A DNA stretch of 34,435 nt, from assembly GCA_016183775.1 (NCBI GenBank), contig JACPDY010000019.1:1-34435 (forward strand). The letters are read 5' to 3'. Positions within the stretch are counted from its first letter, which is position 1. The number at the start of each line of letters is the position of its first letter. This document shows positions 171 through 25,032 of the stretch, piece after piece. The position numbers and the translations under genes are program-made. A model generated the notes under the pieces. That model searched no databases. It worked only from the letters and a program-made list of their open reading frames with translations, and had not been told where the DNA came from. This DNA is from Bacteroidota bacterium (lineage in GTDB: Bacteria; Bacteroidota; Bacteroidia; JABDFU01).

Positions 171-3100
171 TCATGGAGCGGTAAGGTTAATATTCATACT
201 GCATCCGTTTTTATCTGTAACCTTTACTATATAGTTACCAGGACAAAGTTGATTTTTATACCTGGTCACATATCCATCCGGCCAGGAGTAGGAGTAAGGA
301 CTTGTTCCTCCCGAAGCCGTTACCATCAGCCATTCTTTGCAACCGCACGCTACACAGTTAGCAGTACCTTTTGCAAATTGCCCTGATAGTGGAGGTGGTG
401 AAGTAAATGTCGCTGTTGATGTCGCTGTACAACCCTTGTTATCTGTTACAGTAACAGTATAAGTTCCTGCCGATAAACCTGAAACCTGGAACCCTGAACC
501 CTGAATCACACCACTCCAGTTATACATAAAAGCGGGACTGCCTCCCCCGGCTATTGCTGTTGCTGTTCCGTCATTACTTCCGTTACAGGATAAATTTGTT
601 GCGCTTATTGTTACTGTAACCGCAGGGTTAATTGTAATCGCGGTGGTTGAAGAAGCTGTCGCCCCGGTGTTATCTGTTATTGTAACTGTATAGGTTGTTG
701 ATGAAACAGGACATGGACTTATAGTTTGTGTTGTTTCGTTATTGCTCCATGTATATGTGTATGGGCCGGTGCCATTGCTTGCAGCAGCTGTTATGGTAGC
801 GCAGGTATTCGGGCAAATATCCGCCCCTGTCGCTGTAACTGTAATTCCTCCGCAAGGTGTGCCCGTGATCACAAATGTTGCAGTTCTTACCTGATTGCAA
901 TTACTTGTTGTTGTTACCGTGTAGGTCCCGGGACAAAGGCCGGTAATCGTATTAGAAGCTATTGTACTTAATGTTGAACTGCCATTGCTCCATGCATAAC
1001 TGTAGTCGGGCTCGCCGCAGGTTAAACTAATTGTTGCGGTGCCATTACACGGACTGCAGGAGGTTGCATTAACCTGAGATTGAGTATAAGCAGGTGTGAT
1101 AGGAATAAACTTCATTATGAAAGCATCGTGTATACCTGCGAAACCGCTTTGGTAGTATGCTCCGGCTGAATTCAATAATCCATTCGATGTCATTGTCTGC
1201 CATTCGCCAACAGCAAATAAATTATTATTCGCATCTGTTGTAACCGATGATCCAAAATCAATTCCAAAAGTTCCGGAAGTTCCGTTGTAGGTTGCCCATA
1301 GTCGGACGCCATTATTATTGAATTTCAAAATAAATACATCATCCTGCCCGCCCCCTCCGTAACCGGCCAAATACCCACCGCAGCCCGGATTCAGCGTTGG
1401 GAAATCCGTAGATTTAGTGCGACCTGTTACATAAACATTTCCGCAATTATCTACACATATTGCGGGTCCGTTGTATGTTGCGAATGGTTGGTCATCACTA
1501 CTTCCTCCGTAATAACTGCTCCATAAAAGAGCGTTGTTCGTTCCGCTGAATTTGGCTATGTAGGCATCACCAATAAATCCGGTACCGCCATTATATGTAT
1601 TATCGTAATACGCGCCTCCACCCGGATCTAAAGTAGGGAAGGAGGTATCAGTTGTTTTACCGGTGACAAAAATATTTCCACCGGCATCTACAGCGAGATG
1701 ATGCAGTACGCTAAAGCCAGGCCCTCCGAAATTTGTGGCCCAGGTAGATGCACAGGTCGTACTATTGAATTTTAGAATGAATGAATTTGATATTGTTTGA
1801 AAATACGCTCCACCTCCGGGGTTAAGAGTAGGAAAGGTTGGATTGCCGCCTGATCCTCCTACAAAAACATTTCCAAAAGCATCGCAGGCAATTGAATGCG
1901 CCTGGTCAAAACCGCTGCCTCCGTAGTAAGTTGCCCATACGCGTGCACCGTTAATATCAAATTTGAGTATAAATGCATCAATAGTGCCGTTTAATGCTGA
2001 CTGGTTGTATGCTCCCGCAAAGTTAAGGGTCGGGAAATTGGCTGAGTATGTTCTTCCGGCAATGAAAAGATTTCCGGCGGTATCAAATACTATACCGGTA
2101 CCATCGTCCAAAGCGCTTCCTCCATAGTATGTTGCCCATAAACGTGTTCCGCCATTAGAAAACTTAAGGATATAGGCATCGGCTGCTCCGCCTGTCGCGG
2201 CCTGATTGTATGCTCCGGCTTTGTTTAAGACCGGGAAATTGGTCGATTGAGAATACCCGGTTACAAAAATGTTCCCTGTTACGTCAACGGCAATTGAATT
2301 TGCTTCTTCATAGGAACTGCCTCCGTAATAGGTAGCCCATAAGCGAACGCCGTTGTTATCAAATTTTACAATCTGAATATCATGATCACCGTTGTTAGCG
2401 CCGGAGTAATAATTTCCAGTGGACGGGTTATAAACAGGAAAATTGGTTGATTTGGAATATCCACAGGCAAAAACATTTCCGGCGTTATCGGTTTTCACGC
2501 TTAAAAAGCCGTCATAACTATTCCCGCCGTAGTATGTTCCCCATACCAGCTGCGGGTCGATTATCAATGACTCTCCTATATTATAATTGTCAATAGCGAA
2601 ATGAATACGCGTTTCATAACCGTCTAGATTATTTCTTCTATCAGGACTTTTTACAAAATGCGTCGCTATTTCTTTGTCCTGCTGATAGCTTACAGGTGAT
2701 CTTTCGGTTAATGTGCCTGTGTTAGTCTTAATTTCTACTTCTCCGTTTCTGTTTAATCGTAAAGGCTCGGGAGAAGAATAGATCAATTCTATTTTTTTTA
2801 TATCCGCTCCGGGATGAACTATAAAATCATATTTTAAGCCTTTAGGGTCTGAATTATAAAGTACCCAATCAATGTCCGGGTAAATCTCCTTAATGATTAT
2901 TTTTTCAAAGCTGTGTATATCGGTAATTCCATCAGGGCAGTGACCTGAAAAATATTGTACGAAATCTGTACTCCGCCCTTCTTTTATAATATTTTCCCTC
3001 TTAATGGAAGCGCCATTTAAGGTCATGTCGATCCGATCCCATTTCATCTTCCTGTTTTCTTCGTCAGCTTCATCTTCTCCTTCTTCCATTTTCAGAAACA

Positions 3101-3356
3101 TATACGTAATTCCTTTTTCGGTTATATATATTTCCAAAGAAGGAGCATCTACTTTGAACAATACAAATGGTACAGTTTTTCCCTCCATATCAGTCAATTG
3201 CCCTTTGTTTTCAGTGAACCGGACCGGTTTATCGGTTATGTATTGACGGGTATCATTAGAAATTACAGAACCGACAGTTTTATGATCTCCATTGGCAACC
3301 ACATTTCCAATGACAGGCACAACTAATGCAATGGCTAAAATACGGTTCAAGAACAT
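171..3356 (-). CDS. Exported SBBP propeller / SprB-repeat protein 1
   Basis: This 1061-residue protein starts with a hydrophobic signal peptide (about residues 1-22, no lipobox). Next comes a DUF7948-like domain (about 45-267) with the typical FTENKGQ, 'GITYMF' and 'HPGAD' motifs, ending at IDPQLVW. I count seven blades opening with W-x-T-Y-Y-G-G-like strands (about 268-750), which is one complete SBBP propeller. SprB-type repeats (about 755-985) follow, with the pattern CNGSNDGTAT...GTYTVTVTDNKGC. The final 73 residues form the module shared by the whole family: LSGQF, then C-x2-C-G-C-KEW, PYSYSWPDGY, QLCPG and KNGCS, ending LTAP. There is no classical T9SS type A tail. It is divergent from the helical gene at 3562. 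Export is well supported; a role in adhesion or gliding-type surface structures is inference. Confidence 0.9.
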   Translation of the reverse strand: MFLNRILAIALVVPVIGNVVANGDHKTVGSVISNDTRQYITDKPVRFTENKGQLTDMEGKTVPFVLFKVDAPSLEIYITEKGITYMFLKMEEGEDEADEENRKMKWDRIDMTLNGASIKRENIIKEGRSTDFVQYFSGHCPDGITDIHSFEKIIIKEIYPDIDWVLYNSDPKGLKYDFIVHPGADIKKIELIYSSPEPLRLNRNGEVEIKTNTGTLTERSPVSYQQDKEIATHFVKSPDRRNNLDGYETRIHFAIDNYNIGESLIIDPQLVWGTYYGGNSYDGFLSVKTDNAGNVFACGYSKSTNFPVYNPSTGNYYSGANNGDHDIQIVKFDNNGVRLWATYYGGSSYEEANSIAVDVTGNIFVTGYSQSTNFPVLNKAGAYNQAATGGAADAYILKFSNGGTRLWATYYGGSALDDGTGIVFDTAGNLFIAGRTYSANFPTLNFAGAYNQSALNGTIDAFILKFDINGARVWATYYGGSGFDQAHSIACDAFGNVFVGGSGGNPTFPTLNPGGGAYFQTISNSFILKFNSTTCASTWATNFGGPGFSVLHHLAVDAGGNIFVTGKTTDTSFPTLDPGGGAYYDNTYNGGTGFIGDAYIAKFSGTNNALLWSSYYGGSSDDQPFATYNGPAICVDNCGNVYVTGRTKSTDFPTLNPGCGGYLAGYGGGGQDDVFILKFNNNGVRLWATYNGTSGTFGIDFGSSVTTDANNNLFAVGEWQTMTSNGLLNSAGAYYQSGFAGIHDAFIMKFIPITPAYTQSQVNATSCSPCNGTATISLTCGEPDYSYAWSNGSSTLSTIASNTITGLCPGTYTVTTTSNCNQVRTATFVITGTPCGGITVTATGADICPNTCATITAAASNGTGPYTYTWSNNETTQTISPCPVSSTTYTVTITDNTGATASSTTAITINPAVTVTISATNLSCNGSNDGTATAIAGGGSPAFMYNWSGVIQGSGFQVSGLSAGTYTVTVTDNKGCTATSTATFTSPPPLSGQFAKGTANCVACGCKEWLMVTASGGTSPYSYSWPDGYVTRYKNQLCPGNYIVKVTDKNGCSMNINLTAP

Positions 3357-3373
3357 GCTTGTGTTTATTTATA

Positions 3374-3406
3374 GCAAGTTACGTATAAAACCAAACAGCT
3401 TCCAAA
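3374..3406 (-). promoter_or_regulatory. Candidate promoter of exported gene 1
   Basis: On the minus strand TTTG (3403-3406) is followed after 21 bases by TAACTTGC (3374-3381), 17 bp before the ATG. This resembles the Bacteroidota consensus TTTG / TAnnTTTG. The same octamer with TTTG 20 bases upstream lies ahead of exported gene 5 (31357-31388), which strengthens the call. No transcription start is known. Confidence 0.5.
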
Positions 3407-3561
3407 CCAATTGAGGAGCGATTATTTCCTGTTCAGTATGTTTATGCACTTATAAAAATTTATGCTAATTTAGAACGGACAGATATGTTTTTGGGTTATC
3501 CAGATCCGGATTTTATTTCACATTGTTTTACATCAACTGATTTTTAATAGCTCCTATTCAA

Positions 3562-5082
3562 TTGAAACCGACAAACGACCTGTTCCTGCTTATAAAATCC
3601 CTTCATAAGAACGAGAAGCGGTATTTTAAACTATTCGCCTCATTTTATGAAAAGGATAAACAATACCTGAAGCTGTTTGATAAGATCAGCGCGATGGATG
3701 AATACGATGAAGGTTCATTGAAGAAGCAATTTCAATCCGGAGAATTTGCCCTGGCCAAGCACCGCTTGTATAAGATAATATTAAAAAGCCTGGTTGCATA
3801 TAATGATACGGATGATAACAATGACCTGAATCTGGAATTATATAAAGCCGGTATTCTGAAAAAAAAGCGATTGGATAATGAGTTTTTTAAGAGAATGACT
3901 GTTTTAAAAGAACGGGCTTTGAGTTTGGATAAATATGAAGCTGCTGCATATATTATATCAATTGAAAAAAACATAGCACTTGGTAAAGTAATTTATAAGG
4001 AATCATTTAAGGGGGTAACGGATTTTTTCGGAAACCTTTATACCGTCATTGACAGAAGCAAAGAGTTGAATAAATATCATGAGTTGTATTGGAGGGTTTC
4101 GATTGCGAATAATACCAATGACAAAATAAAAACAAAAAAAGTTTTTGATAACATCATTACTTCTGAATACCTGCAGGATGAATCAAAAGCTACGACCTTC
4201 AGGATGAAGATCTTTTTTCACAACACCTGGTCTGTTTATTACGATCACCTTGGAGATACGACAAATTCGTATAAAGAGATCATTAAACTGAAAGCATTAT
4301 TTGAAAAGCATCCCGCGATCATGGATGACAACCCAAATGAATACATGACCGTATTGTATAATTTATTCGAAAAGGCCATCACGCTTAAGCGATATAAAGA
4401 ATCGCGGCTTATAATAAATGATATCAACAAAGTGCCGACGTATGAAGATGAATCGGGGCTGTACAGAGAGTCTTTATCTCTCGCATGCACCTTAAAGTTG
4501 TATGCAAAAGTATTGCCTGAAAGATCAGAGACGTTTATTGATGATATTGTTTTGCGTAATGATATCCGTAAAAAATTATCAGGCATCCGTTCTCCTTTGC
4601 TGAGGATAGTAATTATGTTTCGTATTGCATACCTGTTATTTGTTTTCCGAAAGTACAGGCCGGCTACAAGCTGGTGCAACAGGATCATTGCTGAATTCGA
4701 CAACTATGAAGTGTTTGGTGAACTTACTGTAATGGTAAACATAATGCAGTGCCTGATTGGCTTTGATACGGGAGATCATGCCATTGTTGAAAGTATTATC
4801 CGTTCATTGTCCCGCCGAAAAAAATATTTAACCCAGAGAGAGAATAAAAAATATTTATTGTTAATTATTTCCTCTTTTGAAAAGCTGAATAAAGATCAAA
4901 CTAGAGAAAGATACAATCGTGAGTTATCTGTTCTCAAAGATAAACTCGAACACTTTGATAACTCAACGGATGAAATTATATTTGATTTTGTTGATGTTAT
5001 TTCATGGATAGAAAGCAAAACAGAGGATCGTCCTGTTGCTGAAATAATCCGAAAGAAAGCGGGTCACGTCAGGGCGCAGTAA
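3562..5082 (+). CDS. Cytoplasmic all-helical protein 1, unknown function
   Basis: I recognise this as a family found five times here but know no function for it. The 506-residue protein has no signal peptide or membrane segment and reads as helical throughout, like TPR-type repeats. Residues 5-25 carry the N-terminal signature NDLFLLIKSL..EKRYFKL, followed by YLKLFDKI, YDE and LYKIILKSL (to about residue 75). The C-terminus has the second family signature, VISWIESKTEDRPVAEII. Translation appears to start at TTG: this start matches the N-termini of the paralogues, and the next in-frame ATG is far inside the conserved region. It is divergent from exported gene 1 across 205 bp. A role as regulator or chaperone of that neighbour is inference only. 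Confidence 0.85.
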   Translation: MKPTNDLFLLIKSLHKNEKRYFKLFASFYEKDKQYLKLFDKISAMDEYDEGSLKKQFQSGEFALAKHRLYKIILKSLVAYNDTDDNNDLNLELYKAGILKKKRLDNEFFKRMTVLKERALSLDKYEAAAYIISIEKNIALGKVIYKESFKGVTDFFGNLYTVIDRSKELNKYHELYWRVSIANNTNDKIKTKKVFDNIITSEYLQDESKATTFRMKIFFHNTWSVYYDHLGDTTNSYKEIIKLKALFEKHPAIMDDNPNEYMTVLYNLFEKAITLKRYKESRLIINDINKVPTYEDESGLYRESLSLACTLKLYAKVLPERSETFIDDIVLRNDIRKKLSGIRSPLLRIVIMFRIAYLLFVFRKYRPATSWCNRIIAEFDNYEVFGELTVMVNIMQCLIGFDTGDHAIVESIIRSLSRRKKYLTQRENKKYLLLIISSFEKLNKDQTRERYNRELSVLKDKLEHFDNSTDEIIFDFVDVISWIESKTEDRPVAEIIRKKAGHVRAQ

Positions 5083-5104: not shown

Positions 5105-5179
5105 GTTGTTGGTTGTCAGTAATCAATATGTGGTTGCCTGAAATAGCTTTTTGGTTTACCACAACTGACAACCAACAAC
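5105..5179. terminator. Stem-loop between convergent genes
   Basis: The arms 5105-5120 and 5164-5179 are perfect 16-base reverse complements around a 43-base loop, which holds a smaller TGTGGT/ACCACA pair. The element lies between the stop of the helical gene (5082) and the end of exported gene 2, so it could stop transcription from both sides. There is no clear T-run, so a plain repeat is possible. Part of the same structure is at 1-63. Confidence 0.4.
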
Positions 5180-5252
5180 TAAATCACGGCGTGCTCAAAT
5201 TCACATTCACACTACACCCATTTTTTATTAAGGGATGACATCGCTTCGAAGC
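5111..5252. repeat. 142-bp direct repeat, right copy
   Basis: Identical to 1-142. Here the repeat runs straight into the coding sequence of exported gene 2. It includes that gene's apparent original last 14 codons (5184-5225, now out of frame) and half of the palindrome (5224-5252). The two direct copies could recombine to delete or duplicate the first cassette. Confidence 0.95.
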
Positions 5253-8200
5253 CCGGGCAGAGCTGATTTTTGTACCCGTTTACATAACCATCGGGCCAGG
5301 AGTAGGAGTAAGGGCGTGTACCGCCAGAGCCGTTTATCATCAACCATTCCTTGCAGCCGCAGCCTGCGCAATTGGCCGTGCCTTTTGCAAATTGTCCGGA
5401 CAAGGCGGGTGGAGCAGCTATTGTAACAGATGAAGTTCCTGTACAACCTTTGTTATCTGTTACAGTAACCGAATAGGTTCCAGCGCTTAAGCCGGAAACC
5501 TGGAACCCGGAACCCGGAGCTACATTACTCCAGTTATAGGTGAAAGGCGAAGTACCGCTGCTTCCGCTTGCCTGCGCCGATCCGTCATTGCTTCCGTTAC
5601 AGGTTAAATTTGTTGCATTGACTGTTACAGTAACCACAGGATTAATTGTCACAATTGCAGTTGAAGTGGCTGTAGCTCCTGTATTATCAGTTATAGTAAC
5701 AGTATATGTTGTTGTAGCTGCAGGACAAGGATTAATATTTTGGGTTGTGCCGCCTGTGCTCCATAAATAGGTATATGGTCCGGTGCCACCCACAGTGCTT
5801 GATGTAACTGTGCCGCATGATCCGGGGCAAACTGAGTTGCCCGTGGCAGTTACTGAAGGGCCTGTGCAATTTATGACAGTTATTGTACTTTTTATTGAGG
5901 TGTTACAGGTGCCGTCATTTACACTATGAGTTACAGTATAGGTTCCAACGGTTAGAAAGGCATACGAAAAATTTGTTGTCGTACCGCTTACATTGGCCGG
6001 TGTTATATTGGAAATGAGCCAATTGTAGGTTATTCCGGTGCCCGGTGGTGTACCTGTATTGGTAAAGTTTACATTACTTCCGATACAAACGGTTCCGTTA
6101 GGGGATTGTGTAAATGATGGATCTACAGGGCTTGTTGAGGGAGCGATGGTAGCTGTTGATGTTTGGGTACATCCATTGGCTCCCGTTACTGTTACTGTAT
6201 ATGTATCTGCACTCAAACAACAGCTGTAAGTGCTTTTGGTTCCATTAGACCAGGAATAGGTATATGGGCCTGTGGAACCATTTGCACTTGCTGTTGCACT
6301 GCCATTTGCATTATTACAGCTTGTGCCTGTTGAGCTTACGCTGACGGGAATTTGGGGTGGTTGAGATATGTTTACAGCTACTATTGACGTACAACTACCG
6401 GCATCTGTTATTGTGGCCGTGTATGTACCCGCACCGAGTCCAGTAGCAGTTGAGGTCGTGCTTCCGTTTGACCATGAATAGGTATATGGTGAGGTTCCGC
6501 TCAAAACTGAAATTGTTGCAGATCCATTGTTTGCGCCATAACAAAGCAGATTTGTTTTTGTTACGGATGTTGTTAATGCTCCGGTTGAGGTAACCGTAAC
6601 AACAGCGGTATCCTTATTGCAATTTACATCTGTAACAATTACACTATAGGTTCCGGCTGCAAGACCCGAGATAGAAGGGGTGGTTTGACCTCCGGGTATC
6701 CAATAATAGCTGTAGGAAGACATTCCACCGGAAATACTGGCTGTGGCAGTGCCAATATTACCATTGGTACAATTACCTGTTGGGGTTGCAGTTGCCGTTA
6801 CATCTAATGGGTCAAGTGTGCATGCAGATAAATTAACCGATGCAAGGAACCCATTTCCGCATGCAAGTATTTCTCCGAAATTTCCAAGGCATATATCATA
6901 AATGGCAGCCGAAGTTGCCGCGGATGCCAGGAAAGTAAGGTTGGGATCGTATTTGTAGACTGCATTTTGAGATGATACGTATACATTTCCGCATGTATCA
7001 GTTACGATCCCTGAATTACCGCTTGCGCTTGTAATTGCAGTTCCCCCCGGAATTGTAACTGTATTTATTAATGCACCATTGGTAATATTTCTTTTTTGCA
7101 GAATTGCACCATTGCTGACAAAGAGAAATTGCTTGCTGGCAGCAATTAAATGAAGGGAAACAGGATATGCCACATTTGTATATGATCCTGACCAATAAGT
7201 AATATTAAAACCACCGGAAGTGTTCCATAAATTACCCCAGCCGGGCCCGAACGCTCTTATTCTTGCTGTATTTCCTTGCTCGGCAGTAACACCATAATAA
7301 TTTCCATTTGGAGCTCTGATACAATCTCTCATATCCTCACTTGTTTGACCGATTATTGGATAACCACCAACCGAATATTGATAAACACCGGTTAATGGAT
7401 TAAAAATTTGTTCCGGAGCACCATTGTATCCTGTTGCATACAAAATGGTATTATCACAATCAAACAATATGCGGTAAGGCTCATCATTTCGTATGCCCGA
7501 GCTTGACCATATTAGAGCACCTGCCGAACTCACTTTAAAGAACGGGCTTCCGCATAAGCCACCGCCCGAAATATATACATCACCTTTCTGATCAATTTTC
7601 AGATCATCACCGTAGCAGCCTCTCCAATCATAACCACATGTTGGAGTAGGTACATATGTCCAGATCAAAGCTCCTGCGGAAGAGAATTTTTTCACTCTGA
7701 AGAAATTACCAAGGCCACCTCCGGTACCGCCTAAAATATATACATTACCGGCCTTATCCTTTTCTACTTCCAACGCTTTATTTGGTCCGGGTAAAGCAAC
7801 TCCGGTTGTCCATGGATCAATGATAACGGTGTTTTTTTTATTATAATTATTAAGTTTAAAAGTGACAATATTGTTTTCTGTTTCAAAGTCAGAGCCAATA
7901 ACGGACATATCCGAATGGTAAAAGGTAAACGGCGCATGATCAATGATGTCACCAATTGAAGTACTCAGGTGGATATTTCCGCTTTTATCTTTATAAATTT
8001 TTTCAGCACCTGTGTATTTCATTTGGATTTTTGAGGCATCAGCTCCGGGATGAAGAGTCAATGAATATTTCAAGCCTTCCTTTTTGTGGAAAATATATTC
8101 CAGATCAATACCAGGGTAAAGATTTTTATAAATTATTTTTTTAAATGCGGATGCTTTGTATGATTTTTTCTCATCTCCATATGTATAGTACTCCGGAACA

Positions 8201-8637
8201 ATATCCTGAGCAGTAATTTGAGCATGAGGGTTGGCATTCAACCATTGTAAATGGACAAAATGGGAATGACTCACCGTTTTTCTCACCATTTCCTTTTCAT
8301 AATTCTCTTCTTCAGCATGGGAAGTGAATTTTATATTATCTCTGCCGGTTTTATCTGGTTGATCGGTTCTGTCATAGCGATAGGTAAGGCCATCATTTGT
8401 AAAATAAACCTGAAGGCCATTGGAGTTGATACCATATTTTATACTTGTAGAAGTAAGATTGTTTTTATTGTTAAATTGTCCCTTGTTCTCAATAAATACT
8501 TTATCCTGAAAAATATCATTTCTTATCCAATCCTTTGATGTACCGTTTGAAACAGAAACCCCGAATTGAGCCATAGCCAGTGCCGACTTCAACAGGATCA
8601 GAATTAAAATTGAGGTAGTCGTTCTTAATTCTTTCAT
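5212..8637 (-). CDS. Exported DUF7948 / SprB-repeat protein 2, altered C-terminus
   Basis: The protein has 1141 residues, with a clear signal peptide (about 1-23, ending AMAQ). A DUF7948-like domain (about 45-270) carries VFIENKGQ and 'HPGAD'. The middle (about 270-620) is a propeller-like region but lacks the regular W-x-T-Y-Y-G-G blades of its paralogues; motifs such as KAGNVYILGG and CGNVYVSS suggest a diverged propeller. SprB repeats follow, with a PKD-like domain at about 836-922. The shared C-terminal module begins near 1077 (LSGQF, ANCAGCGCKEW). It is cut after QLCPG: eight codons are replaced by 25 unrelated bases (5226-5250), which shifts the frame and gives the unique end FEAMSSLNKKWV. 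The expected ending KNGCSVNVNLSTP still exists just downstream in another frame. The truncated module may impair sorting. It is divergent from the helical gene at 8844. Confidence 0.88.
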   Translation of the reverse strand: MKELRTTTSILILILLKSALAMAQFGVSVSNGTSKDWIRNDIFQDKVFIENKGQFNNKNNLTSTSIKYGINSNGLQVYFTNDGLTYRYDRTDQPDKTGRDNIKFTSHAEEENYEKEMVRKTVSHSHFVHLQWLNANPHAQITAQDIVPEYYTYGDEKKSYKASAFKKIIYKNLYPGIDLEYIFHKKEGLKYSLTLHPGADASKIQMKYTGAEKIYKDKSGNIHLSTSIGDIIDHAPFTFYHSDMSVIGSDFETENNIVTFKLNNYNKKNTVIIDPWTTGVALPGPNKALEVEKDKAGNVYILGGTGGGLGNFFRVKKFSSAGALIWTYVPTPTCGYDWRGCYGDDLKIDQKGDVYISGGGLCGSPFFKVSSAGALIWSSSGIRNDEPYRILFDCDNTILYATGYNGAPEQIFNPLTGVYQYSVGGYPIIGQTSEDMRDCIRAPNGNYYGVTAEQGNTARIRAFGPGWGNLWNTSGGFNITYWSGSYTNVAYPVSLHLIAASKQFLFVSNGAILQKRNITNGALINTVTIPGGTAITSASGNSGIVTDTCGNVYVSSQNAVYKYDPNLTFLASAATSAAIYDICLGNFGEILACGNGFLASVNLSACTLDPLDVTATATPTGNCTNGNIGTATASISGGMSSYSYYWIPGGQTTPSISGLAAGTYSVIVTDVNCNKDTAVVTVTSTGALTTSVTKTNLLCYGANNGSATISVLSGTSPYTYSWSNGSTTSTATGLGAGTYTATITDAGSCTSIVAVNISQPPQIPVSVSSTGTSCNNANGSATASANGSTGPYTYSWSNGTKSTYSCCLSADTYTVTVTGANGCTQTSTATIAPSTSPVDPSFTQSPNGTVCIGSNVNFTNTGTPPGTGITYNWLISNITPANVSGTTTNFSYAFLTVGTYTVTHSVNDGTCNTSIKSTITVINCTGPSVTATGNSVCPGSCGTVTSSTVGGTGPYTYLWSTGGTTQNINPCPAATTTYTVTITDNTGATATSTAIVTINPVVTVTVNATNLTCNGSNDGSAQASGSSGTSPFTYNWSNVAPGSGFQVSGLSAGTYSVTVTDNKGCTGTSSVTIAAPPALSGQFAKGTANCAGCGCKEWLMINGSGGTRPYSYSWPDGYVNGYKNQLCPGFEAMSSLNKKWV

Positions 8638-8702
8638 TTCCGAAGATTTAATTGTGTTAATTCAACCCTTACCTGAAAGATGTTATATCGTTTTTTTCTC
8701 GT

Positions 8703-8732
8703 AAAGAATGAAATGTGAACATTTCATTCTTT
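8703..8732. promoter_or_regulatory. 30-bp inverted repeat in divergent promoter region 2
   Basis: AAAGAATGAAATGT (8703-8716) and its exact reverse complement (8719-8732) are separated by GA. It lies mid-way between the divergent starts at 8637 and 8844. Such a long, nearly spacer-free dyad suits a dimeric repressor or activator site for both genes. A transcript hairpin is the alternative. Confidence 0.5.
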
Positions 8733-8843
8733 CACTTGTTTTAAATTAAATAAATAGTTCTCTTTTAGCAATTAAAATTTACTGTAAATTTACAATTCAA
8801 AGATATATATTAGTTTATACAATATTGTTAATCAAATATTTAA

Positions 8844-10403
8844 ATGACAAGAACAATTAATAAAAATAGCACTTCAGATAGCTTATTCGAACTGATCAGG
8901 TCATTAAATCCGACGGAGAAAAGATATATCAAGGTGCTAATGTCGAAAAATTCAGGCAGGAGTTATGAAAAATTGTTTGACGTGATCAACAAACAAAAGA
9001 TTTATAATGAATGGGAAACAAAAAGAAAGCTTAGAAACGAAACATATATCAGGCAGCTGGCAAGGATAAAAAACTATCTGTATGAATTCATTGTCGCGGG
9101 ACTTAATACATACCATGCCTCTTTTAGTCCAGGACTAGTACTGAAAAGATACCTGACCACGGTTGAGATACTATTCAGAAAAAAATTATTTGTCCAATGT
9201 AAAAAATACCTGCAAAAGGCGAAGAAACTCGCTTTACGATATAATGAATATACGGCTCTGCTGGAAATTCTGAACTGGGAGAGATCACTGATGGACGTCA
9301 GAGTAAATATAAAAAAAAGAATGACCGATCTTGATACTCACATTATACAGGAAGAAAATGTATTGAAGAAGATCTCCCGTAAAAATCAATATAGAAATCT
9401 GTATTTCAAGGCCTATTGGCTAATGTTGAAGGAGGGAGTGGCAAGAGGTCATAACGGATCGGGTGAAATGGAAAAAATAATAAAACATCCTTTCCTGACT
9501 GATACAAAAAATATAGTTGATGTTTCGACGCGAATAATGTATTTCGAAATACAGGCTTTTTACCGGCAATATGCCGGTAATTTTCCCCAGGCATATAATT
9601 ACAGAAAAAAGCTGATCGGATATTTCACCGAAGATCTTTTAAAAATACCGGAATACGTGCTCAGGTATAAAATGGCTTTGCATAATTTTCTTGTTATTTC
9701 TTCTTATTTGTCTAGGTACGATAGTGTTTATAATAATCTACTCGATCAGCTAAAAGCACTGTCAAAGAATAATGGCCTGTCTGATGTGGTGAAAAAGGAG
9801 ATCCCTGTTGCGGTTTTTGCATTTCAAACGGCAAAATATATTGGTGTAGGTAAATTCAGGGATGCGATCCATTTGATTGAGAATGATTTTGATGGACTGA
9901 GGCCTTTGATAAAGGCGGACAACGAGCTGATACAATTTTACGGACTTTTTTTTACGTGTTACTTTACAGTAAGTAATTATTCAAAGGCTTTGTTCTGGTT
10001 GAATAAGATCATTAATTATCCTCATTCAGATCACAGAAAAGATGTGTTATGTCTTGCCCGTATATTAAATATCATTACACATTACGAAAAAGGTAATTAT
10101 GATTTGATCGAAAATCTTACCCAGTCGACGCGGAGGTATTTTATAAGGGTTCGGCACCATTCTCTTTTTGAGGATCGTGTGCTTGAATTTTTCAAGAATA
10201 GAATGTATGAAATAAAGGATGAAGATGAACAGATCAGGGTATTCATTGATCTGAAGAAAGACCTGACCAGGATACTGAAAAAGGCAAAAGAGAAACTTGT
10301 ACTGGACTATTTTGATTTTATCTCGTGGCTGGAAAGTAAAATTGAGAATCGTCCGCTTATTGAGGTTGTTATTGAAAAGGCGAAGATAGTTGGTGATGGG
10401 TAA
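8844..10403 (+). CDS. Cytoplasmic all-helical protein 2, unknown function
   Basis: This 519-residue paralogue of the protein at 3562 starts at ATG. It has no signal peptide or membrane segment. The N-terminal signature reads SLFELIRSLNPTEKRYIK (about residues 13-30), then YEKLFDVI and IKNYLYEFI. The body is rich in Lys, Tyr, Leu and Ile and looks like stacked helical pairs. It ends with FDFISWLESKIENRP and a basic tail. The stop codon lies inside a short tandem repeat, so the last residues (GDG) are partly repeat-encoded. A 26-base stretch near the 3' end (10366-10391) is identical to the helical gene at 25033, hinting at exchange between paralogues. Function unknown. Confidence 0.85.
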   Translation: MTRTINKNSTSDSLFELIRSLNPTEKRYIKVLMSKNSGRSYEKLFDVINKQKIYNEWETKRKLRNETYIRQLARIKNYLYEFIVAGLNTYHASFSPGLVLKRYLTTVEILFRKKLFVQCKKYLQKAKKLALRYNEYTALLEILNWERSLMDVRVNIKKRMTDLDTHIIQEENVLKKISRKNQYRNLYFKAYWLMLKEGVARGHNGSGEMEKIIKHPFLTDTKNIVDVSTRIMYFEIQAFYRQYAGNFPQAYNYRKKLIGYFTEDLLKIPEYVLRYKMALHNFLVISSYLSRYDSVYNNLLDQLKALSKNNGLSDVVKKEIPVAVFAFQTAKYIGVGKFRDAIHLIENDFDGLRPLIKADNELIQFYGLFFTCYFTVSNYSKALFWLNKIINYPHSDHRKDVLCLARILNIITHYEKGNYDLIENLTQSTRRYFIRVRHHSLFEDRVLEFFKNRMYEIKDEDEQIRVFIDLKKDLTRILKKAKEKLVLDYFDFISWLESKIENRPLIEVVIEKAKIVGDG

Positions 10404-10511: not shown

Positions 10512-13500
10512 TCATGGCGCAGTAAGATTCACATTCACACTACATCCGTTTTTGTCTTTAATGTTTATGTTATATGTACCGGGACAAAGTTGATTTTTAT
10601 ACCTGTTCACATATCCATCGGGCCACAAATAAGTATAAGGGCTTGTGCCGCCTGTTGCATTTATCATTATCCATTCCTTGCAGCCACAACCAGAACAGTT
10701 GGCTGTGCCCTTTGTAAATTGACCAATTAAAGGTGGCGGTGAAGATATTACAGATGAATCGGTTTTAGTACATCCGTTTGCATCTATAACCGTGACTACA
10801 TAAGTTCCAGGACTTAGTCCAATAATAGTTGCTCCCGTTGCTCCATTACTCCAGGTATAATTATAGGCAGGCGTTCCACCAGAAGTGCTTGCGGTACCTG
10901 TACCGTTGTTACTTCCGCATGTTGCGGGACTTGAATTTGTCGAGAGTGAATTAAAATCGGGAAATATGGTAATAGGGCAACTGCCGGCATTTGCCGTTAC
11001 GCCGGTGACATCAGTAACTATACAACTATACTGTGTTGATATTAAAGGACAGACAGAATATGGACCCGATCCGTTTCCAATATTTGGTGTCCAATTATAT
11101 GTATAAGGTGGAGTGCCACCATTAACATTAACCAAGACCGTTTGACAATTACCCGAACACATTTTTGTACAAGGTCCTATTAACTGCGCGGTAACTGAAG
11201 AACAAGACGTGCCTGTGATAATAAATGAGGTGGTTTGCGTTTGATTGCAATTGCTTGCTGCTGTTACGGTGTAGGAACCTGGGCAAAGACCCGTAATAGT
11301 ATTAGAGGTTATCGAGCTATTTAATGTTGAGTTACCATTGCTCCAGGTGTAATTATAGTTTGGTTCGCCACAACTTATGTTAATAGTTGCACTACCATTA
11401 CAGGGAGCACATGTTGTAGAGTTTAACTGGCTTTGATTATAGGAAGGAATAGAAGGAATAAACTTCACAATATAGCCATCATCTAAACCATTGAAAGTTG
11501 CATCAAAATAAGTGCCTCCCCCGGGATCGGTTAAGGGATAAGTTGCCGGATTTATGGAGCCAATATTAATCCATTCTCCAGTGACAAATAAATTCCCAAA
11601 ATTGTCAAGCGCGATTGCTTCTCGATATTCTTCTCCATCTCCTCCAAAGTAAGTAGCCCACAATAAGGCGCCGGTATTGCTAAATTTGATAAGAAAAATA
11701 TCACCAGTAGAAATACCTCCATTGTAACTTGCATCATAATATTCGCACGAAGCATTTCCAAAAGTGAGTATATCGGTTGAAAAAGTTCTAAAACTCACAA
11801 ATACATTCCCACAAAAATCAATAGCAATGTTGTCGTATGTCGACATAATTTCCAGCTTACTCCCTCCATAACAGGTAGCCCATATAAGAAATCCTACGCT
11901 TGTAAATCTCAAGATAAAGGCATCCCCGCTTCCTGCCAAAGTTTGATTATACGCTCCTGCCCAGATAGTAAGTGGAAAATTGGGGGATGCTTCCCACCCT
12001 GTTACATATACATTATTGTTCCCGTCTATTGCAACAGACCACCCTTCGTCATCACTATTTCCTCCATAAAAGGTAGCCCAAGTGCGTGCTCCAGTGTTTG
12101 TAAATCGCAAGACGAAGGCATCCCATCCCCCTCCATAAGTTGGATCATTATAAGCTCCCGTCCAAGGTTGAAGTGGAAAATTTGGGGATGTAGTCCTCCC
12201 GGTTACATACACATTATTGCCTCCGTCTATAGCAATTGCGCACCCTTCTTCAAAGCCACTCCCTCCATAATAGGTAGCCCAGGTGAGTGCTCCTGTGTTC
12301 GTAAATCGTAAGATAAAGGCGTCCAAGAACCCCCCTCCATAAGTTGCATCATTATATGCTCCCACCCAGTTTTGAATTGGGAAATTAGTTGAAGATGTCA
12401 ATCCTGTTATGTACACATTATCACCCCCATCTATAGCAATGGAATATGACCGATCTTCATTATTTCCTCCATAATAGGTAGCCCAGATGCGAACTCCTGT
12501 GTTTGTGAATCGCAAGATGAAGGCATCTCCCAAAACTCCTCCTCCATAAGTTGGATCATTATACGCTCCCGCCCAAGCTTGAAGCGGAAAATCAGTGGAA
12601 CGTGTATTTCCCGTAACATACACATTATTGCTCCCATCTACAGCAATGGAATATCCATCATCGACATTGCTCCCCCCATAATAGGTCGCCCAAGAAAGAA
12701 TTCCGATGTTTGTAAATTGCAAAATAATGACATCGCCAGCCCCCCCCCAAACCGCATCATTATATGCTCCAGCCCTGGTTTGAATAGGATAATTAGAGGA
12801 ACTTGAATAACCCACTACATACACACTCCCATTATCAACTACGATACTCCTAAGGCCATCGAGCCCATTTCCGCCATAAATAGTAGCCCATACTAATTGT
12901 GGGTCAATTACCAATGAAGCTTTGAGATTTGACCCCGAGTACTCGGAGTGAGATGCGAAATTGAAACTAATCCCAACATTGTGTTGGTCAATTATGGTTT
13001 TTGTGAAACTGCACTCCACTTCAACATATGTCTCGTGCAAATAGGAATACGGCGCGTTTTCGGTAAGAGTACCCAGAGGGGTTTTGATATTTATGTTACC
13101 GTCAGGGTCAATTGTTAATGGATTTTCGCTTTCATAAATAAGTTTTATTTGGTTGTAGTCTGCACCTGGATGCACCACAAAATCATATTTCATCCCTGTT
13201 TTGCTACTACTGTAAAATACCCAGTCAATACCAGGATAAACTTCCTTGATAGTAATTTTTTCATACTGACGAACGTCGTAAATACCCTCGGGGCAGTGTC
13301 CGTAAAAATAATTGAAGTGTTCTGCACTTTCTCCTTCTTTAATAATGTTTTCTTTTTTAATACTTGCACCTTTTAAATGCATATTTACCCATGCCATTTC
13401 GGTTTTTACATTTTCTTCTCCCCCCTTTTCTTGTTTGCCTATTGCTCTCGAGTACTCTGCTCTAACTTTTTCTTTGTTTTCTTCTTCCTTGTCTATTAAC

Positions 13501-13817
13501 TGCCTAGTGTCTATTTCTTTGTTTTTTTCTTCTCCTTTCACAAACACATATGTCAAGCCGTTTTCGGTAATGTAAGCATCCATCCCCGGCGATGATGCTC
13601 TGAACAATACAAAAGACACGGGTTTGTAATCGCTATTCACCATCTGCCCTTTGTTCTCCAAAAATTTTACGGGCTGTCGAAGCATCCAGGAGCGAGCTTG
13701 CTCTTTGGTGATTTCTTTATTGGTTTCTTTTTCGGGTAAAGGCAATTTGTCATAGCTGCCTGCAAAGGTACTATCAGCTGTGAGCAGGGATGCGAAAAAT
13801 AAAATTATCTTCTTCAT
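10512..13817 (-). CDS. Exported SBBP propeller / SprB-repeat protein 3
   Basis: The protein has 1101 residues, with a signal peptide at about 1-20 (ending STFAG). The DUF7948-like domain (about 50-305) contains FLENKGQ and GLTYVF, interrupted by a Glu/Lys-rich insert near residues 95-130. Seven very regular SBBP blades (WATYYGG and variants, about 306-790) carry the GNNVYVTG and FILRFTNTG motifs; the blades are close to one another even in DNA, suggesting internal duplication. Three SprB-type repeats follow, then the shared terminal module (about 1027-1101) with ANCSGCGCKEW, QLCPG, KNGCS and the end NLTAP. It lacks the GSGFQVSGL motif seen in proteins 1, 2, 4 and 6. It is divergent from the helical gene at 14015. 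Confidence 0.9.
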   Translation of the reverse strand: MKKIILFFASLLTADSTFAGSYDKLPLPEKETNKEITKEQARSWMLRQPVKFLENKGQMVNSDYKPVSFVLFRASSPGMDAYITENGLTYVFVKGEEKNKEIDTRQLIDKEEENKEKVRAEYSRAIGKQEKGGEENVKTEMAWVNMHLKGASIKKENIIKEGESAEHFNYFYGHCPEGIYDVRQYEKITIKEVYPGIDWVFYSSSKTGMKYDFVVHPGADYNQIKLIYESENPLTIDPDGNINIKTPLGTLTENAPYSYLHETYVEVECSFTKTIIDQHNVGISFNFASHSEYSGSNLKASLVIDPQLVWATIYGGNGLDGLRSIVVDNGSVYVVGYSSSSNYPIQTRAGAYNDAVWGGAGDVIILQFTNIGILSWATYYGGSNVDDGYSIAVDGSNNVYVTGNTRSTDFPLQAWAGAYNDPTYGGGVLGDAFILRFTNTGVRIWATYYGGNNEDRSYSIAIDGGDNVYITGLTSSTNFPIQNWVGAYNDATYGGGFLDAFILRFTNTGALTWATYYGGSGFEEGCAIAIDGGNNVYVTGRTTSPNFPLQPWTGAYNDPTYGGGWDAFVLRFTNTGARTWATFYGGNSDDEGWSVAIDGNNNVYVTGWEASPNFPLTIWAGAYNQTLAGSGDAFILRFTSVGFLIWATCYGGSKLEIMSTYDNIAIDFCGNVFVSFRTFSTDILTFGNASCEYYDASYNGGISTGDIFLIKFSNTGALLWATYFGGDGEEYREAIALDNFGNLFVTGEWINIGSINPATYPLTDPGGGTYFDATFNGLDDGYIVKFIPSIPSYNQSQLNSTTCAPCNGSATINISCGEPNYNYTWSNGNSTLNSSITSNTITGLCPGSYTVTAASNCNQTQTTSFIITGTSCSSVTAQLIGPCTKMCSGNCQTVLVNVNGGTPPYTYNWTPNIGNGSGPYSVCPLISTQYSCIVTDVTGVTANAGSCPITIFPDFNSLSTNSSPATCGSNNGTGTASTSGGTPAYNYTWSNGATGATIIGLSPGTYVVTVIDANGCTKTDSSVISSPPPLIGQFTKGTANCSGCGCKEWIMINATGGTSPYTYLWPDGYVNRYKNQLCPGTYNINIKDKNGCSVNVNLTAP

Positions 13818-13846
13818 TGTAGTATTAAATTCGTGTTATTTCTTTG

Positions 13847-13854
13847 CAAAATTA
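13847..13854 (-). promoter_or_regulatory. Candidate -7 box of exported gene 3
   Basis: TAATTTTG on the minus strand matches the Bacteroidota TAnnTTTG box and lies 29 bp before the ATG. I find no TTTG at the expected spacing upstream, so this is half a promoter at best. Confidence 0.35.
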
Positions 13855-13919
13855 AAGGCGAGCTATGTTAATATAATGAGAAGCAATTATTGCTGAACAT
13901 AAATTTATGCTATTCTTGA

Positions 13920-13948
13920 TTGACATTCAATTAATAATATTATTTTTA
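13920..13948 (+). promoter_or_regulatory. Candidate promoter of helical gene 3
   Basis: TTG (13920-13922) is followed after 18 bases by TATTTTTA (13941-13948). The same octamer lies ahead of helical gene 4 (24992-24999). Transcription would begin near 13955, leaving a leader of about 60 bases that contains the hairpin at 13960-13997. Confidence 0.35.
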
Positions 13949-13959
13949 TAAGAACTAAT

Positions 13960-13997
13960 TATTGTATATTAATATATTATATAATTGATATACAATA
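13960..13997. promoter_or_regulatory. Imperfect inverted repeat before helical gene 3
   Basis: Fourteen-base arms 13960-13973 and 13984-13997 (TATTGTATATTAAT and its partner) pair with one mismatch around a 10-base loop. It lies 17 bp before the ATG at 14015. It could be an operator or a leader hairpin that affects translation. The region is very AT-rich, so chance is not excluded. Confidence 0.35.
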
Positions 13998-14014
13998 AAT
14001 TATATTTATTTATT

Positions 14015-15577
14015 ATGAGAAGATATATTAAATTTAATGATACAATTTTTAGCCTTGTCAAATCGCTCGATCTTGCCGAAAAGCGATTCCTGAAATCGGC
14101 TTTCATAAATCAAAATCATGGGAAAAAGAGCAATTCGGTTCTTCTTTTTAATATTCTTGACAAGCAAAAAGAATACAGCCGCAAACAGGTGAAGAAACTA
14201 TTCATGGAGCGGTGCGGAAGCAATAATATTTCCGTTGCAAGGTACCACCTGTATCGACTCATGATCAAAAGCCTGGTGACTTTTCACTTTTCAGATCGCA
14301 AAGACAATCAACTTCAGGAAGAAATAAATCATATCAAGATACTATACACTAAAAAATTATTCAAAGAGGCAGATAGTACAATACAAAAAGCAAAAAGGAA
14401 TGCCTATGACCAGGAAAATTATTATGGATTACCAGAATTGTTATATTGGGAAAAAAGATTGATCGGAAATTTTCCGAACCGGGAACAAGTCATGCCAAGA
14501 ATTACCAAGGCAATAGATGAACAAAAAGCAGTGTTTGATCAAATCGCTGAGATTGACAATCTCTGGATAAAGGTTGAACAAATGAATAATATTACCAAGT
14601 TAAACGTGGATATTGCCAACAGACCCGATTTGTTAAAACGAATTGAGAAAATAGTCGGTTCCGTTTCAAACGAGATACACCGCACATCATCTTCACTCGC
14701 CCGATTCTATTGGAGCGGTATTCACATGCAATATGCCGTGCTAACGAAAAACTCGGAAGCTGTGTTTCTCTATTCAAAAAGGGAAATTGAGTTTATGGAA
14801 GGTCGATCCCGCTTGATCCAGGCTTATCCATGGCGTTACCTAACTTATTTGAGTGTATATAATAATGCCTTGCGAATGATGAAAAAATATAATGAAGCAT
14901 TATCGGTCATTCGTAAAATGAAGTCTGAAATAGAACGGCTTAGTAAAACATTATCAGTTACCACAAAAGTTGAGTTTTATTCGCGCATTTACATACGGGA
15001 AATGAATATATATGCTGCAACTTTTGAATTCAATAAAATTATAGGATTGGTACCTGAAATAGTGCAAATGAAACAGGAATATAAAGGTAAGATTGTGGAT
15101 AATGATTTGAAAACAATTCAATACAATATCGCCTATGGATTTTTTTGTACAAGCCAGTACAGGAAGGCTCTGAGATGGGTTAATGATTTCACTCAAACAC
15201 AAAGCAAAGATGCTATTTCGGCAATTGATTTTTGGGGAAATACGCTACTTTTTCTTATTCATTATGAATTGGGTAATTATGAATTGCTGACCGGGCTCAT
15301 GAAGAAGTTTAAATTGTCAAGGCCGGAGGATAAACGAATGGCCAAAATTGGAGATGCAATTACACGGTTTATAGAAGAAGTGATCCCATTGGTAGGCAAC
15401 AATTTTGAATTTATTAAACATGTAAAGGCTTTGATAAAAGATTTCAGAAAAATTGAGGACGAAGAAGACTTCGATCATTTATTAGGAATAGATGTCCTTT
15501 CCTGGCTCCGATCGAAGGTGGAGAACAAACCGTTTGTCAGGATTCTGAAGGAACGATCGGGAGAATCTGATAATTGA
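14015..15577 (+). CDS. Cytoplasmic all-helical protein 3, unknown function
   Basis: A 520-residue member of the helical family. I chose the ATG at 14015 rather than the in-frame TTG at 13985. The TTG lies inside an inverted repeat, and the ATG restores the family's short N-terminus and the usual ~200 bp gap to the divergent gene. The N-terminal signature is TIFSLVKSLDLAEKRFLKS, then LLFNILDKQKEY and YHLYRLMIKSLVTF. The C-terminal signature is diverged: DVLSWLRSKVENKPFVRIL. There is no signal peptide or membrane segment. It converges on exported gene 4 with only 47 bp between stops. It is among the more divergent of the five copies. Confidence 0.85.
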   Translation: MRRYIKFNDTIFSLVKSLDLAEKRFLKSAFINQNHGKKSNSVLLFNILDKQKEYSRKQVKKLFMERCGSNNISVARYHLYRLMIKSLVTFHFSDRKDNQLQEEINHIKILYTKKLFKEADSTIQKAKRNAYDQENYYGLPELLYWEKRLIGNFPNREQVMPRITKAIDEQKAVFDQIAEIDNLWIKVEQMNNITKLNVDIANRPDLLKRIEKIVGSVSNEIHRTSSSLARFYWSGIHMQYAVLTKNSEAVFLYSKREIEFMEGRSRLIQAYPWRYLTYLSVYNNALRMMKKYNEALSVIRKMKSEIERLSKTLSVTTKVEFYSRIYIREMNIYAATFEFNKIIGLVPEIVQMKQEYKGKIVDNDLKTIQYNIAYGFFCTSQYRKALRWVNDFTQTQSKDAISAIDFWGNTLLFLIHYELGNYELLTGLMKKFKLSRPEDKRMAKIGDAITRFIEEVIPLVGNNFEFIKHVKALIKDFRKIEDEEDFDHLLGIDVLSWLRSKVENKPFVRILKERSGESDN

Positions 15578-15624: not shown

Positions 15625-18600
15625 TCAGGGTGCGGTGAGGTTAATGTTTACACTACACCCGTTTTTGTCAGTAATATTTATAGTATACGATCCGGGACAT
15701 AACTGGTTTCTATACCTGTTAACAATTCCGCCTGAGGCTGGCCAGGAGTAGGAGTAGGGGTTTGTTCCGCCGGTGGCGGTTACCATTAACCATTCTTTAC
15801 AGCTACAGCCTGCGCAATTGGCTGTGCCTTTTGTAAATTGTCCGGACAAGGAGGGTGGAGCAGCTATTGTAACAGACGAAGTTCCTGTACAACCTTTGTT
15901 ATCTGTTACAGTAACCGAATAGATTCCTGCACTTAAACCTGAAACCTGGAACCCCGAACCCGGAACCACATTGCTCCAATTATAGGTGAAAGGAGCTGTA
16001 CCGCTGTTTCCTGTTGCAGTAGCTGAACCGTTTGTTCCACCATTGCAGGTAATATTTGATGGTGTCACTATAACTGAAACAGCAGGATTAACAGTAACCA
16101 CTATTGTAGTTGATCCGGTACACCCCCCATTGTTTGCTGTTAGAGTGTAAGTAGTGTTGCTAGTAGGGCTTACTGTTATTGCTGTTGTTGTTGCTCCCGT
16201 GCTCCACACATACGTACCGCCTCCGTTGGCTGTAAGTATTGTATTACTACCATTGCAAATGGTGGTTATACCACTGATGCCAGGTGTTACGCTTCCGCTA
16301 CCAGCTATCATTGTATAAGTGGCTTGTAAAGTATCATTACAATTCATATAAGCGGTTACGGTATAAGTTCCTGCACATAAACCGGTAACTGTATTGGTGG
16401 TGCTAGCAACATTCATCGTACTGCTGCCATTACTCCATACATAGCTGTAATTGGGATTACCACAACTCACATTTATTGTTGCACTACCATTGCAAGAGCA
16501 AGACGGATTGTTTTGAGATTGAATGAAGGAAGGAAAAATAGGTGAAAATTTACCAACAAAAGCGTCATCTCCGGTACCTCCTCCTTGATATACACCATCA
16601 AAATAAGCGCCGCCGCCCGGATCTTTTACTACTCCTCCAGGTAGCTGATATTCTCCTATAATAAAAAGATTCCTGTTCTGGTCAACAGCCAGATCTTCTC
16701 CCCATCCATACCCTTTTAATGAAACGCACCAATTAAATACCCTGTTGACATTAAACCAAGCTATAAACGGCACTTGGCAATTACTTCCACTCTTATCGTT
16801 TGCATAAAACGAACCACAGCCGGCATCTTTATACGGAAAGCCAGTTGTACATCCTCTACCAGTAATATACAAATTATCACAGTTATCAATGACTGCTCCC
16901 ATGAGACCAGTGCCTCTGCCATCGCCTCCAGACCCCCCAAAAAATGTTGCCCATACTTGTGCACCGGTGGGATCAAATTCAGATATAAATATATCATCCC
17001 CACCTGCTGAACCAATAATGTTATCAAAATATGCTCCTCCACCCGGATTAACTAATGGAAAACCATTGCTAGTGGTTCCAACAACAAAAAGATGATCCGA
17101 ACTATTCATAGCTAATACATCTGCCCAGCTATTTCCTGTTCCTCCCAGGTAAGTGCTCCATAGCAACTGGCCGGTTGTAGAAAATTCGGTTAAATAACAT
17201 GCCGCTAAAAATGTGTTTGAAGTTTTTACAGATTGGTTGTAAGCTCCAAGTTTATTTTTTATTGGCATATCGGATGACCGGGTAAAACCTGAAACAAAAA
17301 CATATCCATTGCTATTGGTAATTACACTTTGAGCCCTTTCAACTTCGGTTCCACCGAAATAAGTTGACCATTTAAGTTGCAATGAGGAATCAAATTTCAT
17401 AATAAAAGCATCATTTCCTTTATCAGTCTGTAAGTAGGAACCAGCATTTATTCCTAATAGAGGCAATGTTCCATTTAAAAAAGATAAAGACCCTGTTACT
17501 GTTAAGCCAACAATATATAAATTATCCATTTTGTCGATATGACCAGAATATGCATAGTATGTTCCTTTCAGATAGGTTCCCCATTGTCTGATGCCGGCAC
17601 TAGAAAATTTCAATACAAATCCCCTCCCTGTGTAAGATGGCTCAAAATAAGAAATCCCACCCGCTGATTGTGTAGGAAAGTCATTACACTCGGTGGTTCC
17701 AATAATAAATATATTTCCCTTGCTGTCAATTTCAATATCTTCTGCCCATTCCGTTTTCGCATCAATTCCGCCATAAAAAGTCGCCCATAATCTTTGCCCG
17801 GTATTACTGAATTTTAAAATAGTTATATCATGCGCTCTTCCTCCAAATGTATTTTTATAATAAGCCCCACCACCCATATCAAGAAGAGGGTAATCAAGAG
17901 ATGCTGTATAACCGCAGACAATAATATTGCCATTGCTATCAGTCGATATTCCATTAAAACCATCTAAATCATTACCAGTATAAAGGGTCAACCAGTCCAG
18001 TGCGGGATCAATAACAAGATTTTGCTTCAAGTCATACGATCCTAAATCAAATAAAATTTCCTTTGAAAAATTCTCTTGTGAATCTCCTTCTCTGGTTTTT
18101 ATTTCATATTTTGAAGAGATTATTGTTTTCTTTTCCTCTTCATAACATATCAGCTCTCCTTCATTCAGATTACCAAGTGGAGTAACTATATTTATAAATC
18201 TTCCATTTCCCGACTTCAATTTCCCATTTCCTTTATAAAGAAGTCTTATCATTTTCGGATCTGCTCCAGGCCGGACAATAAAATCCTGTTTAATCAAAGG
18301 CGGACTCTCATTTGAATGTTGTTTTATATATAACACCCAATCTATTCCGGGATATATATTTGTGAATGTAATTTTTTCATAAGTCTTTACATCGAAAATG
18401 CCTTGTGGAAAATAACCGGTATAATAATCTATTCTGCCCGTTTCAATGAGAGCACCCTTAACAATTTTATCCTTACTAATGGAGGCTCCTTCAAGTTCCA
18501 TATCTATTATACTAATTTCCATTCTTCGCTTTTTTCTATCACCCGGGAGTTGAATAGCATTGTTGCATATATCTTCCTCTTCTTTTTCCTCTCTTTTCGT

Positions 18601-20306: not shown

Positions 20307-20358
20307 ATTTTTTGATTTTTGTTTATAGTTTGTTTAACTATTAAGAGTTGGTATTCAA

Positions 20359-22221: not shown

Positions 22222-22232
22222 ATGTTTGGAGA

Positions 22233-24755: not shown

Positions 24756-24819
24756 GGGGCGCTTTCTAATTATTATTCTTGTTCGGATTCTTTGTAATGC
24801 CTTGTGTTTACTCATTTAT

Positions 24820-24850
24820 CAAATATATGTTCAAAATACAGGCATTGCAA
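24820..24850 (-). promoter_or_regulatory. Candidate promoter of the three-gene T9SS-cargo operon
   Basis: On the minus strand TTG (24848-24850) is followed after 20 bases by TATATTTG (24820-24827), a full match to the Bacteroidota TAnnTTTG box. Transcription would begin around 24815, which fits translation from the ATG at 24753-24755. Confidence 0.55.
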
Positions 24851-24999: not shown

Positions 25000-25032
25000 G
25001 ATAATCAGTGTTTTAAATTAACCTTATTTAAG

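Follow-up and report, generated by a model that had tools for sequence, protein, structure and literature searches.

RusR-Related TPR Proteins, Expanded in a Bacteroidota Genus and Encoded Divergently from Secreted Proteins, as Candidate Local Regulators

Introduction

A 34,435-nucleotide stretch of a Bacteroidota draft genome (GCA_016183775.1, contig JACPDY010000019.1), hereafter the window, carries five genes for related helical proteins of about 510 aa. Why would one bacterium keep so many diverged copies of such a protein, and what would each of them act on? The original prediction, made from the nucleotide sequence, proposed that the conserved ends bind a common partner or DNA, that the variable middle reads something specific, and that the proteins loosely resemble RRNPP regulators. 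Searching Pfam, PADLOC, and PDB by sequence, with the individual proteins or a profile built from them, yielded no match that could be used. A defence system was ruled out by the lack of PADLOC support and by the secreted-protein neighbours.

Results and Discussion

Five Paralogues with Conserved Ends

Five open reading frames of 505–520 aa were confirmed on the + strand: gene 1 (3562–5082, 506 aa), gene 2 (8844–10403, 519 aa), gene 3 (14015–15577, 520 aa), gene 4 (25033–26565, 510 aa), and gene 5 (31525–33042, 505 aa). Their products are all-helical and paralogous, conserved at both ends and diverged in between. Aligned from end to end as a single family, the other window copies share 19–28% identity with gene 1. 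This likeness exceeds chance: a tblastn search of the same genome with the gene 4 protein gave 92 matches, the majority with an E of 1e-30 or lower. Start codons were assigned by rule. Gene 1 starts at TTG, where the reading MKPTNDLFLLIKSL aligns with the starts of relatives, e.g., MKPSDELFRLIRSL; for gene 3, the ORF caller places the start at a TTG at 13985.

The contrast between conserved ends and a variable middle, originally read from the window copies, holds across 49 same-genome paralogues. The fraction of the modal residue was 0.66 in the first 20 columns and 0.61 in the C-terminal block, compared with 0.21–0.37 in columns 140–360, and it returned to 0.39–0.51 in columns 360–430. Invariant columns were F8, L10, S13, L14, E18, K19, L38, F39, Y48, and L69 in the N-terminal block and D478, S481, W482, S485, K486, and P491 in the C-terminal block. 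The family consensus agrees with the two signature motifs of the original prediction, and gene 1 itself carries a diverged form, DVISWIESKTEDRP. In gene 1, the predicted five-helix head (aa 1–88; 3562–3825, +), placed from alignments and the model of the gene 4 homologue, contains the conserved block LFLLIKSLHKNEKRYFK ... YLKLFDKI ... LYKIILKSL. The C-terminal signature, FDFVDVISWIESKTEDRP, lies at 4981–5034 (+) and was defined from the invariant columns of the alignment.

Homology to RusR

The profile NF058569 (BT2802 family ribose utilization protein) gave a full-length match in all 56 members tested. Four window proteins were shown individually, namely those of gene 1 (E 4e-28, full length), gene 2 (E 6e-45), gene 3 (E 3e-25), and gene 4 (E 5e-40), with three of them matching over residues 1–500. 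Gene 5 was assigned from the alignment and the NF058569 profile, and it grouped in the tree with L041 of a related MAG. Because all window proteins scored 89–154 bits (E 1e-25 to 1e-45), below the trusted cut-off of 550 bits, they are homologues rather than members of NF058569. This cut-off was reached in none of 296 genomes of the phylum, in a scan that scored the first four or so candidates from each.

RusR (BT2802), the sole studied member of the family, controls the rus PUL (BT2803–2809) for ribose use in Bacteroides thetaiotaomicron, according to PMC12596196, which cites Glowacki 2020. The search could have undercut the original prediction by matching a characterised family of another function; what it returned is a homologue described there as a regulator. 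This full-length homology, together with the divergent gene context described below, lends indirect support to the regulatory role originally suggested. The members nearest BT2802, L185 and L186 (464 and 430 bits), are divergent from rbsK and a sugar permease, as named from the neighbouring sequences, and this fits the expectation for a ribose system. The window proteins resemble the BT2802/RusR family in their equal size and in homology over the full 500 aa, and its closest members share the divergence from a target operon. They differ in their lower profile scores, in facing secreted proteins with no link to ribose genes, and in numbering ~85 copies where usually one to a few are found.

A Predicted TPR Body with a Basic Head

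AlphaFold2 modelling of the gene 4 protein, with 56 relatives in the alignment, gave a pLDDT of 91 and a pTM of 0.84. The model consists of five helices (residues 5–84) followed by a helical-hairpin solenoid extending to residue 510. TPR Pfam models matched 24 of the 56 relatives, and the distinct head on a TPR-like body that had been anticipated is thus what the model contains. The body aligned best with RapI, Rap Phi3T, and NprR (VIA, Z 19–20, about 300 residues, rmsd 4.4–5.9). LGN (Z 19.0) and Rpn6 (Z 18.5) were tied or close, and because they score similarly, the body fold is not RRNPP-specific. The proposed RRNPP likeness therefore survives in that Rap and NprR lead the structural matches, but not as a specific relationship. 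The window proteins share with RRNPP regulators (Rap, NprR, and PlcR) the TPR-type C-terminal body, and with NprR and PlcR the order of head and then TPR, but no Xre-type HTH (HTH_3) was found in them by sequence. MalT, a STAND regulator, likewise contains a TPR superhelix (domain III; 1hz4, Z 17.4), whereas the window family has no NTPase domain, carries its head at the opposite end, and reaches only about 510 aa.

The head, folded alone, reached a pLDDT of 86. Foldseek returned no significant match for it (E 2.6 or worse). Its VIA list was rich in sigma region 4 and LuxR-type HTH domains at Z 4–6.5, all below the noise line of 8; the best sigma4 rows aligned residues 17–90 with an rmsd of 1.9–3.6 and sub-threshold Z of up to 6.5. 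The Ebola VP30 C-terminal domain topped the list at Z 7.4, also under the threshold. Judged from these sub-threshold matches, the candidate HTH would consist of helices 52–59 and 63–89. When the head was compared with this genome's own sigma4 and LuxR domains by profile–profile alignment (hhalign), the probability was ~1%, slightly above that of TPR control windows, and no HTH family matched the five window proteins by sequence up to E 1. The original remark that no standard HTH could be seen holds at the level of sequence, but the structural matches, at sub-threshold scores, leave room for an HTH of the sigma4/LuxR type in the head. The net charge of the head is about +7, compared with +2 to +3 per 88 aa of the body. 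Taken together, DNA binding by the head is predicted as likely.

Divergent Secreted-Protein Partners

Each of the five window copies is divergent from a large secreted-protein gene across a gap of 197–217 bp. In four of these partners, DUF7948 is joined by repeats of the propeller, SprB, or PKD-like kind, and the remaining one is of the Kelch type and has a type IX secretion sorting domain. Gene 1 faces 171–3356 (−, 1061 aa, secreted, with DUF7948, an SBBP propeller, and SprB repeats) across 3357–3561 (205 bp), the divergent promoter region proposed as its control site. The corresponding divergent promoter region of gene 2 is 8638–8843 (206 bp), beyond which lies 5212–8637 (−, 1141 aa; DUF7948, SprB, and PKD, with a frameshifted tail). 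Gene 3 faces 10512–13817 (−, 1101 aa; DUF7948, SBBP, and SprB) across 13818–14014 (197 bp), a divergent promoter region with a 26-nt imperfect dyad at 13948–14009. The partner of gene 4, 22233–24815 (−), encodes a Kelch propeller with Por_Secre_tail (T9SS type A sorting domain) and is separated from it by the divergent promoter region 24816–25032 (217 bp). Gene 5 faces 26641–31308 (−, 1555 aa) across the divergent promoter region 31309–31524 (216 bp); this partner has a DUF7948 N-terminal region (match at C19:30511–31203) and SBBP-like, PKD-like, and SprB-like repeats.

Other features accompany these genes. A likely operon at 19248–24815 (−) holds three T9SS cargo genes, beginning with 22233–24815 and continuing with 20359–22221 and 19248–20306. 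Its products are the Kelch propeller, a protein with weak Disaggr_repeat/collagen-binding matches, and a small protein, all with Por_Secre_tail. A perfect 24-nt palindrome with no loop (114–161), past the 3′ end of 171–3356, is a probable terminator, as is a 16-nt stem (5105–5179) between the convergent genes 3562–5082 and 5212–8637.

After split matches were merged, the 92 tblastn matches in the draft genome (4.54 Mb, 164 contigs, 97.7% complete) corresponded to 89 genes or fragments, and the genome holds about 85–90 family genes. First-look candidates came to 96 here, against no more than 14 in any other sampled genome. A family member was present in 76 of the 296 phylum genomes, usually with one to a few matches, on the basis of the first four or so candidates scored in each. 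The expansion was assigned to the genus because incomplete congeneric genomes have up to 42 matches. DUF7948 genes number 138 in this genome after merging, compared with at most 11 candidates per genome among those listed for the 295 others.

A divergent DUF7948 gene lies within 1 kb of 55 of the 89 family genes, against a chance expectation of 3–5 if 2500–3800 genes are assumed (binomial P about 1e-45 or lower), and within 3 kb of 65. The median gap from start codon to start codon was 208 bp in 49 cleanly read pairs. Nine more family genes, one of them at a distance of 1.2 kb, are divergent from Por_Secre_tail secreted proteins (eight of these passing the Pfam cut-off), and one copy, L165, is divergent from leuA. 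The presence of SprA makes a type IX system likely in this genome. A divergent family member is missing for 74 of the 138 DUF7948 genes, many of which lie in tandem behind one that has it. The original prediction had overlooked that these genes are paired with secreted proteins and how far the family has expanded.

Similarity among the putative regulators was uncorrelated with similarity among their cargo (Mantel r 0.04), with most distances near saturation, and co-evolution was consequently dropped as proof of pairing. The correlation between regulator and intergenic similarity was weak (r 0.116, 94 of 5000 permutations). L154 and L156 have close regulators (0.57) and similar cargo (0.59), and L119 and L129 have close regulators (0.51) and dissimilar cargo (0.28). 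Pairs of the latter kind may reflect cargo exchange, subject to the near saturation of most distances. Fragmented or interrupted family genes were seen at C88:11841–13278, C79:99619–99798, and C144:10370–10714, suggesting turnover by duplication and decay.

A leuA-Linked Orthologue and Its Conserved Element

A scan of named genomes gave 79 family loci in Bacteroidota and Ignavibacteria. The upstream divergent gene was leuA in 29 of the 79 and encoded a protein with a T9SS-like C-terminus, called by a simple pattern, in about 22; these are not rates, because the scan took the C-terminal motif as its seed. In further loci from the phylum sample, leuA was the divergent gene in 19 of 21. The leuA-linked proteins, including the copy in this genome, formed essentially one clade in the tree (5 label changes compared with 27 in shuffles), and this branch therefore looks like an old orthologue.

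The leuA gaps share the element TTTTACAnTGTnTAAA, most often 74 bp ahead of the family gene. EM in 20 dissimilar gaps found it with a log-likelihood of 94, compared with 48–54 in shuffles. When its matrix was applied to 19 gaps of other genomes, some closely related and their loci thus not all independent, the summed best score was 216, compared with at most 113 in shuffles. The element is conserved across Bacteroidota leuA gaps (L066–L109, L165, L189–L206, and L209) and is partly palindromic and dyad-like; it is a candidate operator or promoter part. It was not enriched in the window. No operator common to the DUF7948 pairs of this genome was found, and dyad EM did not beat shuffles. The sole enriched motif in these pairs, GTCAAATCAA, was rejected as a shared operator and reads as the −33 element of the cargo promoter. 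TTGATANNCAA occurred close to family starts in 5 of 70 cases, compared with 0.2 in shuffles; it was chosen after looking and serves as a lead only. Short TTGATAnnCAA-like palindromes near or upstream of family starts (L064, L108, L114, L117, L130, L153, L158, and L159) are likewise a post hoc lead.

Proposed Role and Alternatives

The RusR homology, divergent position, fairly constant gap, varied targets, and leuA-gap element together favour one-component transcription regulators, each acting on its own divergent promoter and expanded in the genus to control the secreted repertoire locus by locus. We estimate the probability of this explanation at roughly two in three. The proteins would be cytoplasmic one-component regulators of a Bacteroidota-wide family, with RusR (BT2802) as its one studied member. 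The basic N-terminal helical head, probably an HTH, would bind the ~200 bp region shared with the divergent neighbour. Ligand or partner sensing would fall to the TPR solenoid. The conserved C-terminal block would probably be part of a common interface. Each copy would raise or lower expression of its own divergent target, presumably in a one-to-one match: leuA for the ancestral phylum-wide orthologue, rbsK and the sugar permease for the RusR branch, and secreted cargo for the remaining copies. Amplification at the genus level would then have set ~85 regulators facing 138 DUF7948 proteins, so that surface proteins could be switched separately.

TPR solenoids are protein-binding folds and most copies in this genome adjoin a secreted giant; the proteins could accordingly be cytoplasmic chaperones or secretion adaptors that bind the divergently encoded secreted protein, rather than transcription factors. 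Such a role would leave unexplained the phylum-wide orthologue facing leuA, a gene for a cytosolic enzyme, and it also sits poorly with the BT2802 branch facing rbsK and a permease. Because leuA, rbsK, and the surface proteins are so unlike as targets, a cis-acting regulator fits better than a protein partner. A divergent, fairly constant gap of ~200 bp is moreover the usual arrangement for a regulator and its target rather than for a chaperone–client operon, and RusR is reported as a regulator in PMC12596196. We consider a chaperone or adaptor unlikely. It is also unlikely that the family regulates without binding DNA itself, by a Rap-like body that binds another transcription factor or a head that binds RNA polymerase or RNA. 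In its favour, Rap proteins, which bind response regulators, head the list of structures similar to the body, and the HTH evidence for the head is sub-threshold. However, the head is basic, DNA-binding domains are frequent among its structural matches, the leuA gap holds a conserved element, and no second regulator gene recurred beside the family in the loci read.

A further proposal, compatible with one-component regulators acting locally, concerns what the cassette array is for. It could be a repertoire for antigenic variation or kin recognition, with few cargo genes on at any one time and the regulators forming an exclusivity network. The 138 DUF7948 genes (at most 11 candidates among those listed for the 295 other genomes), the ~85–90 regulators, and the uncorrelated similarities of regulators and cargo would suit such a repertoire. 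That lack of correlation may instead reflect saturation, and among the 25 of 65 pairs listed from the inverted-repeat scan of the window, none was an obvious invertible promoter with long arms; we give this proposal low odds. PUL regulators and surface-layer or capsule switching in Bacteroides similarly place a local regulator beside its surface machinery at many loci per genome. These systems use other families, namely HTCS, ECF-sigma pairs, and invertible promoters, which were not found in the window.

More tentatively, and at somewhat less than even odds, one lineage may possess a surface repertoire switchable locus by locus through ~85 dedicated TPR one-component regulators of a little-known type, most of them divergent from a giant secreted DUF7948 protein. 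On this reading, the family would be the founder of a new TPR regulator class that has a head not of the Xre type and that ancestrally targets leucine biosynthesis across the phylum. A phylum-wide regulator family would gain RusR as its type member, and TTTTACAnTGTnTAAA in the leuA gap is predicted to be a control element for leucine biosynthesis. A genome with some 85 regulators and 138 surface proteins arranged as divergent units would offer a natural system for studying both the control of a surface repertoire and how regulator specificity diverges after duplication. In the literature searched, which mostly excludes subscription journals, we found neither a name for TTTTACAnTGTnTAAA nor an account of a genome with divergent regulators and surface proteins of this kind.

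A Candidate Lineage-Specific C-Terminal Tail

DUF7948-type proteins end in a C-terminal module of ~71 aa, GQFxKGTANCxGCGCKEWLMV ... NRYKNQLCPGxYxINIKDKNGCSVNxNLxAP. Copies in the window, all on the − strand, lie at 174–401, 5233–5415, 10515–10742, 15628–15861, 26644–26868, and 33114–33341. About 150 matches were found in this genome, one copy was visible in a related MAG (L037), and none was found at E 1e-12 in the 295 sampled phylum genomes. The window copies share 74–86% aa identity with third bases near saturation, which points to protein-level constraint rather than recent gene conversion. The module is a candidate lineage-specific sorting or anchoring tail. In the partner of gene 2 (5212–8637), this tail is frameshifted (5212–5415, −) and ends in LCPGFEAMSSLNKKWV, whereas the other copies run on to NLTAP.
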